DNA of 64,000 nucleotides from Verrucomicrobiota bacterium (lineage in GTDB: Bacteria > Verrucomicrobiota > Verrucomicrobiia > Limisphaerales > JADLHS01), in contig JAKQDQ010000178.1 of NCBI GenBank assembly GCA_029573725.1, positions 1-64,000 of the forward strand, given 5' to 3'. Made by a program: the position numbers and the translations under genes. This document shows, piece after piece, positions 21,564-26,731 of this stretch; position 1 is the stretch's first letter, and the number at the start of each line of letters is the position of its first letter. Under the pieces are notes generated by a model. That model saw only the letters and a program-made list of their open reading frames with translations, ran no database searches and was not told the origin of the DNA.

Positions 21564-22873
21564 GGTCGCACCTCGTCGTCGGCGGCGTTGTTGGCGATGA
21601 CCGCCCGTCCCTGGCTGTGGTTGCGGATCCGGCTTTGTCCGCGCAGCAGATTCCCGGTGATCACGGCGCGTTGCACGCCGCGGCTTAATTCGATCTGCGG
21701 CTTGTTCTCTTGAAACTCGCAGCCGCGCACGACCACGCTGCCGCTCTCGACCTGCAGCGCGGGCCGGCCTTCCTGGTTGCGATCCCACTGCACGAACGTG
21801 CAATCGCTGAAACCGACCGTGCCGGTGCCGGCGATCTTTGCGATTTGATTGCAGGGGCCCCAGAAAGCGGAATTGACGAAGCGCACACTGCCCACATTGT
21901 TCGGGCTCACGCGAACCATCGTCGGGTCGGGGCCGTGGAAGGAAACAAACTCGCCATTGGAAATCAACAACCCGATGCGCGAGCATTGTTCAACTTCCAG
22001 GGCCGTGTAGCAATCGTCCGCGCCGATGCCGAGGAAGTTCCCGTTGCAATCCCCCGATTTCGTTTTGATGAATTTGTAGCCGACGTTGTAGCCGAAGCAG
22101 AACGTGTTGAAGACGTATTGCCAGTCGCTCTTGCCGAAGATGAACGCCTCGCCGTGCTGTTGCTGCCATTCAAACAACCGGGGCTGCATGCTCCACCACG
22201 GATTGAAATGGACGTTTTCGATGCGGCCAATGTCGTAGATGTGGTCCACGTAGATGCCGCGCCGCAGCGGCTGGCCGTGAACGTCACGGATCAGGTGACG
22301 TTCATTCCGTGACGCATCAATGCCATTGTAGGGATTGAGCAACTCCACCGCGAGCACGGCGGGATTTTTGCCGCGCATGGCGATGGCATAAGGATATGCC
22401 TTTGGCGCGGCATCCACATTCTGTTCCGGATAGTAAATCACCACTCCCTTGAGCGTGCAGTTATGGTTCAGCGTGATGAATGGCGGGCCGTCTTCCTTGC
22501 CCGCGCTTCCGGTCACGAGAAACGTCGTCCCGTCGTCGGTTGGCTTTGGCAACCCGGCGTCGCGGATGCCGTTGTGGGCCGGCACGGATTCCCAGACGCC
22601 TTTCAAGGTGACAGCCGGAGGCACGTTGAGATGTCCCGCAAAGAAATAATTCCCGCGTGGGGCGTAAACCATTCCCCCTCCGGCCTGGCCCGCCGCGTCC
22701 AGTGCCTTCTGAAACGCGGCGGTGTCATCGGTGATCCCGTCCGCTTTCGCGCCGAAATCGAGCACGGAAAGCGGGTCCGCCGCGATGGCGGACGCGAGGC
22801 AGGTGGCGAGGAAAATTCCGGTCAGGCCGGGCTGCATGAAGCCTTTGCGGGATGGCAGGGGATGCGTGGTCAT
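21560..22873 (-). CDS. secreted pectate-lyase-superfamily (Pectate_lyase_3 / GH55-like) protein
   Basis: 437 residues, with a signal peptide ending near [29 protein letters not shown] and [19 protein letters not shown] are the hallmark start of the Pectate_lyase_3 beta-helix family (rhamnogalacturonase/GH55 type, phage tailspikes). Later coils include [35 protein letters not shown] and [20 protein letters not shown]. Substrate specificity cannot be read from the sequence. The start ATG overlaps the GH2 stop and the end overlaps the next start, each by four bases. The three genes are therefore tightly coupled and probably expressed in fixed ratio. Confidence 0.87.
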
Positions 22874-24732
22874 TTTCCAGCGGCGGCGCGGTTGGCTGAG
22901 CTGACGGCGGCGGCGTCCATTTTAAGGATGGCGCGATCGTAAGTCAGCAAGCCGTTGACTTCGACTTCCACGTCGGTGGTCTGGGTGTAGATGCCGGCTG
23001 AGAGCCCGTCGGTTTGGGTCAACGGGGTCAACTTTTGCAGCAAATCCACATAGGCGGCGGTCAATTCGGTGGCGTTGGTAAAACTGCGATAGCCCCAATT
23101 TTTTTCGTCCTGCCAGGTATGGCCCTTGACCGGCAGCCCCAGACCGCCGAACTCGCCGAGCACCCTGGCGCGATCGGTCACCTGGAGCGGCAGACCGGGG
23201 CCGGGATACTGATGATGATCAATCAGGTCGCCGGCGGGGAAGTGGTTGCCGCCACTGGGCCCGTCCACCAGACGGGAGGGATCAAGCTGTCTGGTGAGAT
23301 TCAAAATGCGCACGGTGTCAAACTGTCCCCAGCCCTCATTGAACGGCACCCACACCACAAGGCTCGGGTGGTTGTAGCGTCCGGCGATGAGCGCCTTGAG
23401 TTCGCGCTCATAAATTGCCGCCGACTCGGGGGTGCGCTGCATCTCTTCCCCATCGTAACCGCTTGGGCCTTTCCACCTGGCGCTCTTGTCACCGCTGGGC
23501 ATGTCCTGCCAGACCAGCAGTCCGAGTTTGTCGCACCAATAATACCAGCGTTCCGGCTCCACCTTCACATGCTTGCGGACCATGTTGAAGCCGAGTTGCT
23601 TCGTCATTTCAATGTCGTAACGCAGCGCCGCATCCGTCGGCGCGGTGTATAGCCCATCCGGCCAGAACCCCTGATCCAGCGGTCCCAACTGAAAATAGGG
23701 CCGATTGTTCAGGCACATGCGGAGAAAGCCGTTTGCGTCCTTGCCCAGCGAAATTTTGCGCATGCCAAAATAGGAGTTCACCTCGTCCACCTTTTTGCCG
23801 TCTGCGAACAACGTGACGCGCAGGTCATACAGGTGTGGCGATTCGGGGGACCAGAGTCTGGCCTCCGGCACGGCGAGCGTGAGGCTGGGCAGGATTTGCG
23901 GCGGGAGCGAGCGGGTGGAAATCATTTGTTCCACCTCGCCCTCCCTCACGACGCGCCGGCCGTCCCGCACCTGCACTTTGAGCGTCATCTTCCCGTTGCC
24001 GCCGATGCCCCGCGCCTGAACCGTGACCGCCCCCGCATCCACGTCGGGGGTGATCTTCAACTCCTGGAGATGGGCCGGCGCGACGGGTTCGAGCCACACG
24101 GTCTGCCAGATGCCGCTCGTGGGCGTGTACCAAATGCCGTTGGGCTCGCGCACCTGCTTGCCGCGCGGCTGCGGACCGGCATCGGTCGGATCCCAAACCG
24201 CCACGACAATTTCCTGTTCGCCCCTGGGGCGGAGAGCGCCGGTAAGGTCGCAACTGAAACCGTCGTAGCCGCCGCGGTGCGTGCCCACTTCCTGGCCGTT
24301 GACCCAGACCGTCGCCTCCCAATCCACCGCGCCGAAGTGGAGCAGCACTTGTTTGCCCTTCCACAGGCGCGGCAGTTTGAACGTGCGGCGATACCACAGC
24401 CGCTGGGTGGCATCCACACGCCGCATCACTCCGGAGAGCGCGGATTCGACCGGGAACGGCACAAGGATTTGCCCCTCCCAGGTGCGGGGTTGGGGCGCCG
24501 CTTTGGGGGTGATGGCATAGTCCCACAAGCCATTCAGGTTGTGCCAGGTTTTGCGCACCATCTGCGGACGCGGGTATTCCGGATGCGCATTGTGCGGCGA
24601 CACCTCCGCCGCCCAGCGTGTCAGCAGGGGGCCGGAGGCCGGATGCCAGGACTCCGCCGCCGCCAGGGCGGAGGCACCGCTCAGAAGGGCGAGACTAATG
24701 AGGCCCCATCGTTTTCGTAGTGTGCTTTGCAT
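22870..24732 (-). CDS. secreted glycoside hydrolase family 2 protein
   Basis: 620 residues, signal peptide [14 protein letters not shown]. Domains: a sugar-binding jelly roll (~50-220: [22 protein letters not shown] then [20 protein letters not shown]), an immunoglobulin-like linker domain (~220-330), then the TIM barrel. [14 protein letters not shown] holds the acid/base Glu and [14 protein letters not shown] the likely nucleophile Glu, so it should be active. GH2 covers beta-galactosidases, -mannosidases, -glucuronidases and arabinosidases; the exact substrate is not deducible. I place the start at ATG 24732, directly before the signal peptide; the frame is open to 24783. It is the first gene of the three-gene polysaccharide operon. 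Confidence 0.9.
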
Positions 24733-24783
24733 AAAGTTGGGTGATGTTTCCCCGCGCCGACCGACCGGAATGCAGGCCCGCAT

Positions 24784-25104
24784 CGGCGAACCCGCCAGAC
24801 GCCGTGCATGACCGGCGGCCGGTGCAAATGGGGGCCGGCGGCCCGGTCGGTGTCAAAAAATAAACCGCGATGATTTGCATGGCCGTCTCAATCGTTTACG
24901 TCGCGCGCGGCTTCAGCCTGAACCGGTGCATTAAACCGGAGGGCACAAAGCCAAGTCAAGGAATGCTCGGGGAAGCTTTTTGAGTTGTCAGAAAAAGATT
25001 TTGGCGTAGGATGAGAGTGCAGCAAGAGATTGGCACCCGGGGTGCAGGACGCCAGACAAGCGGGAATCGCTCTTTGGAATCAAAATTTCGGACGAGGGAA
25101 TTTG
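24784..25104. other. intergenic leader region between the GH2 operon and the 6S-like RNA
   Basis: AT-richer stretch with no coding potential. The minus strand carries TTTTTTGACACCGACC (around 24850), which could be a -35 element for the GH2 operon, but I see no good -10 at the right distance. The plus strand must carry a promoter if the structured RNA downstream is transcribed from here; I could not identify a convincing one. Confidence 0.35.
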
Positions 25105-25275
25105 CCCTGCCTTGTGCGTGATTCGTAACGGAATCCTTGAACCGTAATAAATACGAAATCCTGGTGTGCGTCCGCGTGACCACCGACAGGCCTTGACTGG
25201 AAGTCGAACGTCTCCCGGCAAACACCACAAGTTGAACTCAACTTGTTCAAAGGAATTGTTACACACGGCAATGGT
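25105..25275 (+). ncRNA. ssrS: candidate 6S RNA
   Basis: A non-coding stretch folds into one long interrupted rod. Outer closing helix: UGCC-U-UGUG (25108-25116) with CACACGGCA (25262-25270), one mismatch. Middle helix: 25126-25142 with 25245-25261 (UAAC/GUUA, UCC/GGA, UUGAAC/GUUCAA, small bulges). A central open region follows: 25143-25161 on the 5' side, and on the 3' side a small hairpin CAAGTT...AACTTG (25228-25245). The apical arm starts UGGUGU/ACACCA (25162-25167 with 25222-25227). Closing stem, central bubble with a 3'-side hairpin and apical stem is the 6S RNA plan (an RNA that sequesters housekeeping RNA polymerase). From memory, 6S genes lie next to rarA in several phyla, and rarA is the next gene here. 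An intrinsic terminator follows at 25288. No sequence search was possible. Confidence 0.6.
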
Positions 25276-25287
25276 GGGGTGACTTTG

Positions 25288-25327
25288 ACGGGTGGCGCAT
25301 CGCCAGGAGGCGCGCCACCCGTTTTTC
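25288..25327 (+). terminator. Rho-independent terminator upstream of rarA
   Basis: ACGGGTGGCGC (25288-25298) and GCGCCACCCGT (25312-25322) form a perfect 11-bp GC-rich stem, followed by TTTTT and C. The T-run is only on the plus strand. No protein gene on that strand precedes it for more than 6 kb, so it must end a non-coding transcript or act as an attenuator for rarA, whose GTG begins 37 bases downstream. Confidence 0.85.
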
Positions 25328-25363
25328 ATTCCGGCGGTCCCGCCTTGCTGCTACGCTTGCACC

Positions 25364-26731
25364 GTGACGCGCGACGACCTGTTTGCCACCCACGACCCGG
25401 CGCCAGCCGTTCCGGCCGGGGCCCCGGTCACGGCCCCGCCGCGCCGGCCACCCCTCGCCGCCCGCCTGCGCCCGCGCCACCTGGACGAATTCATCGGACA
25501 ACAACACCTTCTCGCGCCAGGATTATTGCTGCGCCGGGCCATTGAAGCGGACCGGATTCAATCGCTGATTTTTTACGGTCCACCCGGCACGGGCAAAACT
25601 TCGCTGGCGCAAATCATCGCGCAGCAGACCACCAGCAAATTTGAACGGCTCAGCGGAGTGGAATCCAACGTGGCCGACATGCGGCGGGTGTTGAGCGGCG
25701 CCCATAACCGGCTCGAAAACACCGGGCAGCCGACAATTCTGTTCATTGATGAAATCCACCGGTTCAGCAAACCGCAGCAGGACGTGCTGCTGCCGGATGT
25801 GGAGAGCGGCGTGATCCGGCTGATCGGGGCCACGACGCACAATCCCTTTTTCTTCGTCAATTCGCCCCTGGTTTCACGTTCGCAAATTTTTGAACTGCGT
25901 CCGCTCGCCGAGGCGGACATATTTCAATTGCTGCAACGCGCGCTGGGCGATGCCGGGCGCGGCCTGGGTTATTTGCCAATCAACGCGGCGCCCGCGGCCT
26001 TGCGGCATCTGGCCGCCATGGCCGATGGAGATGCGCGCAAAGGGTTGAACGCGCTGGAAATCGCCGCGCTGACCACCGCCCCCGACGCCGCCGGCGTCAT
26101 CCAGCTGGATCTGGCGGCGGCGGAACAAAGCATTCAGAAAAAAGCCGTTGTCTATGACGGCGATGGCGACGCGCATTATGACACCATTTCGGCTTTCATC
26201 AAATCCATGCGCGGCAGCGATCCGGACGCCGCGCTCTACTGGCTGGCGAAGATGATCCACGCCGGGGAAGATCCGCGCTTCATCGCCCGGCGCATCGTCA
26301 TTCACGCGGCGGAGGATGTGGGCCTGGCCGACCCGATGGCGCTGGTGCTGGCAAACGCGGCGTTTCAAGCGGCCGAATTCATCGGCTGGCCGGAGGCGCG
26401 CATTCCGCTGGCCGAGGCGACGATCTACATCGCCACGGCCCCCAAGAGCAACACCAGCCTCAAGGCCATTGACGCCGCGCTCGCGGATGTACAATCCGGG
26501 ACAACGCTGCCGGTGCCGGAAGCGTTGCGCGACCCGCACCATCCGGGCGCCAAAACACGGGAGCGCGGCGCGGGCTACAAGTACGTCCACGATTACCCGG
26601 GCCATTTCGTCCCGCAGGATTACCTGGGCGCTGTCCGGCGCTATTACGAACCGACAGAGCAAGGCGCGGAGAAAAAAATCAAGGACCGGCTGCAGCACTG
26701 GCGTCAGGGGCGCGCCGCCCAACCGGAATGA
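25364..26731 (+). CDS. rarA: replication-associated recombination protein A (RarA/MgsA AAA+ ATPase)
   Basis: 455 residues. RLRPRHLDEFIGQQHLL leads into Walker A YGPPGTGKTSLAQIIA, then the ESNVADMRRVL segment, Walker B ILFIDEIHRFSKPQQDVLLP and sensor 1 LIGATTHNPFFFVN. The RarA C-terminal part includes KKAVVYDGDGDAHYDTISAF, IKSMRGSDPDAALYWLAKMI, FIARRIVIHAAEDVGLADP and YKYVHDYPGHFVPQDYLG. It acts at stalled forks with SSB. GTG 25364 gives the usual short Pro-rich N-terminus; the ATG at 25292 lies within the terminator hairpin and adds unrelated residues, so I reject it. Confidence 0.95.
   Translation: MTRDDLFATHDPAPAVPAGAPVTAPPRRPPLAARLRPRHLDEFIGQQHLLAPGLLLRRAIEADRIQSLIFYGPPGTGKTSLAQIIAQQTTSKFERLSGVESNVADMRRVLSGAHNRLENTGQPTILFIDEIHRFSKPQQDVLLPDVESGVIRLIGATTHNPFFFVNSPLVSRSQIFELRPLAEADIFQLLQRALGDAGRGLGYLPINAAPAALRHLAAMADGDARKGLNALEIAALTTAPDAAGVIQLDLAAAEQSIQKKAVVYDGDGDAHYDTISAFIKSMRGSDPDAALYWLAKMIHAGEDPRFIARRIVIHAAEDVGLADPMALVLANAAFQAAEFIGWPEARIPLAEATIYIATAPKSNTSLKAIDAALADVQSGTTLPVPEALRDPHHPGAKTRERGAGYKYVHDYPGHFVPQDYLGAVRRYYEPTEQGAEKKIKDRLQHWRQGRAAQPE

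Follow-up and report, generated by a model that had tools for sequence, protein, structure and literature searches.

6S RNA is a small RNA that shuts down the transcription machinery in other bacteria. BoxA is a signal used by bacteria to push RNA polymerase through ribosomal RNA genes, and it has also been described in a few mRNAs and ahead of CRISPR arrays. The gamma-proteobacterial boxA consensus is GYTCTTTAANA, the suhB gene of E. coli is a further case of boxA and NusB-NusE, and the survey of gamma-proteobacterial boxA elements left non-coding RNAs out (PMC5725501). Lactic acid bacteria and B. subtilis are already known to have rarA beside 6S (PMC8414754), so the synteny described below is not new. 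A literature search of limited coverage gave no report combining boxA, NusB and 6S RNA.

The window analysed here is the whole stretch of 64,000 nucleotides, in which a 6S RNA had been predicted from the letters alone and a comparison with the Rfam 6S model proposed. At an E-value threshold, RF00013 matched 25101-25284 on the plus strand over its full length (model positions 1-187 of 187; 44.1 bits, E = 1.2e-7), and this was its sole match in the whole 4.28-Mb genome (E = 2.1e-7). The gathering score, which serves as the automatic cut-off of Rfam, is 46.4 bits, leaving this copy 2.3 bits under it; a scan of the window at the Rfam default cut-off reported nothing, and annotation based on that cut-off would therefore miss 25101-25284. 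R2, a covariance model built from 38 sequences from other families of the order, with the window's own family left out, gave 130.5 bits (E = 7.5e-34) at identical coordinates. It is virtually certain that 25101-25284 is a canonical 6S RNA, and its identity is secure. As a gene it is ordinary, being one further member of a known RNA.

The original prediction had asked whether 6S RNA is already catalogued in this lineage. For most relatives the existing model suffices: RF00013 found 6S in 50 of 57 genomes of the order (the window's own included), with 45 of the 57 above the cut-off, and copies slightly under it, such as the one in the window, are likely to be unannotated. The lineage model recovered 6S in three of the seven genomes negative with RF00013. 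Neither model found it in the other four (G008, G026, G028 and G055), three of which have a completeness of 90-97%; possible reasons are loss, divergence and gaps in the assembly. In one assembly (G003), two separate contigs each carry a near-identical 6S locus with rarA, which may reflect a strain mixture or a duplication.

Folding of 25100-25330 gave -92.5 kcal/mol, compared with -70.0 ± 4.9 kcal/mol for dinucleotide shuffles (z = -4.6), and none of 200 shuffles was as stable, in agreement with the plus-strand rod and following terminator that had been predicted. The rod is as it was described, except that the closing stem is longer, beginning at 25102, so that the 5' end lies a few bases upstream of 25105. 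In an alignment of 50 6S sequences, 96% of the cells at consensus pairs were paired, and 57 cells were changed on both sides compared with 16.9 in shuffles. When the partner was slid by one to three columns, pairing fell to only 30-43%. It is mainly the apical helices that covary; as the closing stem and the inner helix vary little, they are less informative. The closing stem, central bubble and apical arm are kept by compensatory change, as conservation in relatives was expected to show. Open reading frames cross the 6S stretch on both strands, supported by nothing but being open.

By analogy with E. coli 6S, the template side of the central bubble for product RNA (pRNA) is expected at 25134-25148 on the plus strand (UCCUUGAACCGUAAU). 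The template strand UCCUUGAACCGUA is nearly invariant across the 50 sequences. The predicted pRNA would read about 5'-ACGGUUCAAGGA, with a start site uncertain by 1-2 nt.

Downstream of the rod, an intrinsic terminator is predicted at 25287-25326 on the plus strand (-28.7 kcal/mol). A stem followed by a T-run had been foreseen here; the stem comprises 12 bp rather than 11 bp (25287-25298 with 25312-25323), contains a small additional inner hairpin and is followed by T5 at 25322-25326. Relatives of the same genus have a hairpin of different sequence and a T-run at the equivalent position. A BjrC68 match on the minus strand coincides with this hairpin and was rejected (26.8 bits, cut-off 39).

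Both neighbouring genes were correctly named in the original prediction. To the left is a gene for a GH2 enzyme (22870-24783, minus strand) and to the right is rarA (mgsA; 25364-26731, plus strand, probable start GTG at 25364), identified by the Pfam domains MgsA_C (226.5 bits) and AAA_assoc_2 (93.2 bits). Of 51 6S loci of the order, 36 have a rarA gene downstream in the same orientation, mostly 40-210 nt past the 6S end. The remaining 15 have no rarA in the available DNA, the downstream sequence being short in some. Other classes of the phylum share this arrangement, as do metagenome-assembled genomes labelled Omnitrophota, Firestonebacteria, Nitrospirae and Bacillota, in line with the statement in the original prediction that 6S genes lie beside rarA in several phyla. 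Since 80 nt separate the 6S stretch from rarA, which follows on the same strand, and since the stretch has a terminator at its end, the structure might be read as a long 5' leader or attenuator of rarA and not as an independent RNA. This is extremely improbable given the full-length matches to RF00013 and R2, the occurrence of 6S without nearby rarA in several genomes of the order and in sampled other orders of the class, and the position of the terminator between 6S and rarA. Transcription of rarA would probably start from a promoter of its own. Just 5' of its start, a TGCTAnnnT motif (25345-25364), seen by eye at the same place in relatives, suggests an extended -10 promoter of rarA with a very short leader or none.

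Upstream of the coordinates given in the original prediction, and absent from it, are a putative promoter and a leader with a boxA-like element. The element, CGCTCTTTGGAA, is at 25068-25079 on the plus strand, matches the consensus at 11 of 12 positions and ends approximately 21 nt before the mature 5' end. The boxA of the same genome's own rrn leader reads AGCTCTTTGAAA; on a wider reading, the two sites are AGCTCTTTGAAAATTGAA before 16S and CGCTCTTTGGAATCAAAA before 6S. At position 10 the 6S element differs from the rrn consensus, with GGAA in place of GAAA. With a matrix made from rrn-leader boxA alone it ranked fourth of 127,974 window positions. Since its score is equalled or exceeded at three further sites of the 64-kb window, the element is not significant for the single copy and the case rests on conservation.

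When the upstream regions of 6S genes of the order were set side by side, TCTTTG recurred approximately 20-40 nt before the mature start. A hexamer count made with no prior motif over the 55 nt preceding each of 51 6S genes put TCTTTG first (35 of 51). A boxA consensus match of at least 10 of 12 within 150 nt upstream was found at 43 of the 51 loci. None of the 26 tmRNA loci in these genomes had such a match, and it occurred in 98 of 4865 random segments (2.0%); this 12-letter consensus was written after the 6S loci had been seen, a circumstance of which the hexamer and rrn-matrix tests are free. With the matrix trained on rrn leaders alone, the 6S loci had a median score of 9.7 versus -2.3 for dinucleotide shuffles, and 26 of 51 were over the 1% line, compared with 0 of 26 tmRNA loci. 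The strict pattern of TCTTTG plus a 6S start was found in 73 of 196 genomes of the order (reversed-pattern control, 1), a number that includes a few chance matches (G002:C84 and G448:C700 are unlike 6S starts) and, as the genomes are related, does not count independent events. The element is absent from a few 6S genes of the order (for example, L158 and L160). It is also present at 6S genes without rarA and thus goes with 6S, not with rarA; for the same reason a role of boxA in read-through to rarA is unlikely.

The rrn leaders of the order carry TGCTCTTTGAAAAT approximately 120-185 nt before 16S. Using a 16S pattern adapted to the lineage, in which the 16S start reads AGAGTTTGATTCTGGCTCAG, the same element was found at that distance in 29 of 30 loci. 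The exception (L186) has a mismatched 16S pattern and probably does not mark the start of a 16S gene.

A predicted σ70-type promoter (TTGTCA-N16-TAGGAT) was located at 24985-25012 on the plus strand from a consensus scan and the motif of relatives, in which the equivalent site is CTTGAG(A)-N16-18-GATAnT. Transcription would be expected to start near 25018-25020. TTGAG was found upstream of boxA in 36 of 47 loci of the order compared with 3.3 in shuffles, and TTGAG followed at 16-18 nt by a -10-like hexamer in 28 of 47 compared with 4.2. In these loci the motif ends about 40 nt before boxA. In the window, the promoter position would place boxA in a leader of approximately 80 nt, ahead of mature 6S. 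This predicted leader includes a small hairpin, GGCACCCGGGGTGC (25032-25045, plus strand), recognized from sequence and fold, which is boxB-like by position only and whose role can be suggested only tentatively. The 6S leaders of the window's family have a GGCAC-N5-GTGC hairpin some tens of nucleotides before boxA. In rrn leaders of the same family (L171-L176), a boxB-like hairpin such as GGGTGG-nAA-CACCC directly precedes boxA.

We consider it quite likely that the 6S gene is made from a leadered precursor whose boxA leader is bound by Nus factors, which would then accompany polymerase through the untranslated 6S RNA. A housekeeping promoter near 24985-25012 would start an RNA of about 300 nt, and the boxA in its leader would be bound by NusB-NusE (S10), as in the rRNA leader. 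The Nus-modified polymerase would cross the untranslated, highly structured 6S without Rho-dependent termination, perhaps also aiding 6S folding, and the unit would end at the hairpin at 25287-25326. The leader would then be cut off to leave a rod of approximately 184 nt. This rod would mimic an open promoter, bind the housekeeping polymerase holoenzyme and be freed by pRNA synthesis. NusB is encoded in the window's genome (TIGR01951, 147.9 bits), as is Rho, for which there are two Rho-like genes, G000:C30:24381-25619 (685 bits) and G000:C87:104462-105547 (478 bits, below the curated cut-off).

It is also possible, although unlikely, that this is an ordinary 6S gene and that the TCTTTG element is unrelated to Nus, being a processing site, an upstream activator site or a promoter-associated motif. 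The element is connected to boxA by sequence similarity alone, it stands anywhere from about 13 to 67 nt away from the 6S start, and many 6S genes manage without it. However, in these genomes the match to the rrn-leader boxA extends well beyond TCTTTG, and the element is downstream of the conserved promoter motif, in the expected transcribed leader. Furthermore, a processing or activator site would have no obvious reason to copy the rrn boxA. Another explanation is based on pairing: the leader UUCUUUGAA imitates the 5' strand of the inner helix, UCCUUGAAC, and might hold the precursor in an inactive fold. The leader element can indeed pair with the conserved GUUCAAAGGA strand, with up to about -8 kcal/mol, but pairs from one genome had no advantage over swapped ones (46 of 300 swaps were equally good), and the rrn boxA pairs just as well with the inner-helix strand, which makes such a role very doubtful.

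The boxA-like element is not confined to the order. Many 6S genes from other classes of the phylum are preceded by TGTTCTTTnnnA, at a distance of 38-63 nt. Among 62 such loci, 11 were above the strict rrn-matrix line (expectation below 1), and in most of 18 other-class pairs the TCTTT core is present in both the 6S and the rrn leader of one genome, although the rrn site of one pair (L296) is further away and doubtful. In contrast, boxA is mostly missing from 6S genes of other orders within the window's class and of one further family group, where a σ70-like promoter usually ends 3-11 nt ahead of the 6S start; 1 of 28 of these genes was above the rrn-matrix line. As we read the tabulated upstream regions, 6S genes of the phylum appear to come in two designs, one with a leader and one lacking it. 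Outside the phylum, no convincing boxA was found at the rarA-adjacent 6S genes checked, among which locus L222 was not counted.

At several other-class loci (L035, L036, L039, L052 and others) the bases flanking the 6S start and end pair with each other, for example ccgggggtaaaaa with ttttgcccccgg, in the manner of rRNA processing stems. Over the 62 other-class loci, leader-trailer pairing averaged -14.2 kcal/mol versus -11.95 kcal/mol for swapped pairs, and none of 200 swaps was as good. Such leader-trailer pairing is absent in the window's order.

On balance, we think it somewhat more likely than not that 6S RNA, across much of the Verrucomicrobiota, belongs with rRNA to a Nus-factor (boxA) regulon and is synthesized via the rRNA antitermination machinery, with 6S and rRNA competing for, or tuned by, the same NusB-S10 pool. 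If Nus factors do help to make 6S, a global inhibitor of housekeeping transcription would be wired to the machinery of rRNA synthesis, and untranslated RNAs besides rRNA would need protection during elongation. The designs with and without a leader in one phylum would provide natural controls.

The RNA has the same length, closing stem, central bubble and apical arm as 6S RNA elsewhere (RF00013; ssrS of E. coli and 6S-1 of B. subtilis). Ms1 RNA is structurally related to 6S and also binds RNA polymerase, but it binds the core enzyme and was described in Actinobacteria (PMC9130861), whereas the match here, with Ms1 covered by the Rfam scan alone, is to 6S. In lactic acid bacteria rarA is upstream of 6S (PMC8414754), whereas here it is downstream on the same strand. 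The region upstream of E. coli ssrS has no element comparable to boxA, in contrast to the predicted boxA-containing leader of the gene described here, which judged from its sequence is a new variant of 6S gene design. With the boxA of rrn antitermination by NusB-NusE, the 6S element shares the TCTTTG core and most flanking bases and, as in rrn, it is in the predicted transcribed leader of an untranslated structured RNA. The targets of the rrn and suhB boxA elements are rRNA or mRNA, whereas the target here would be 6S RNA.
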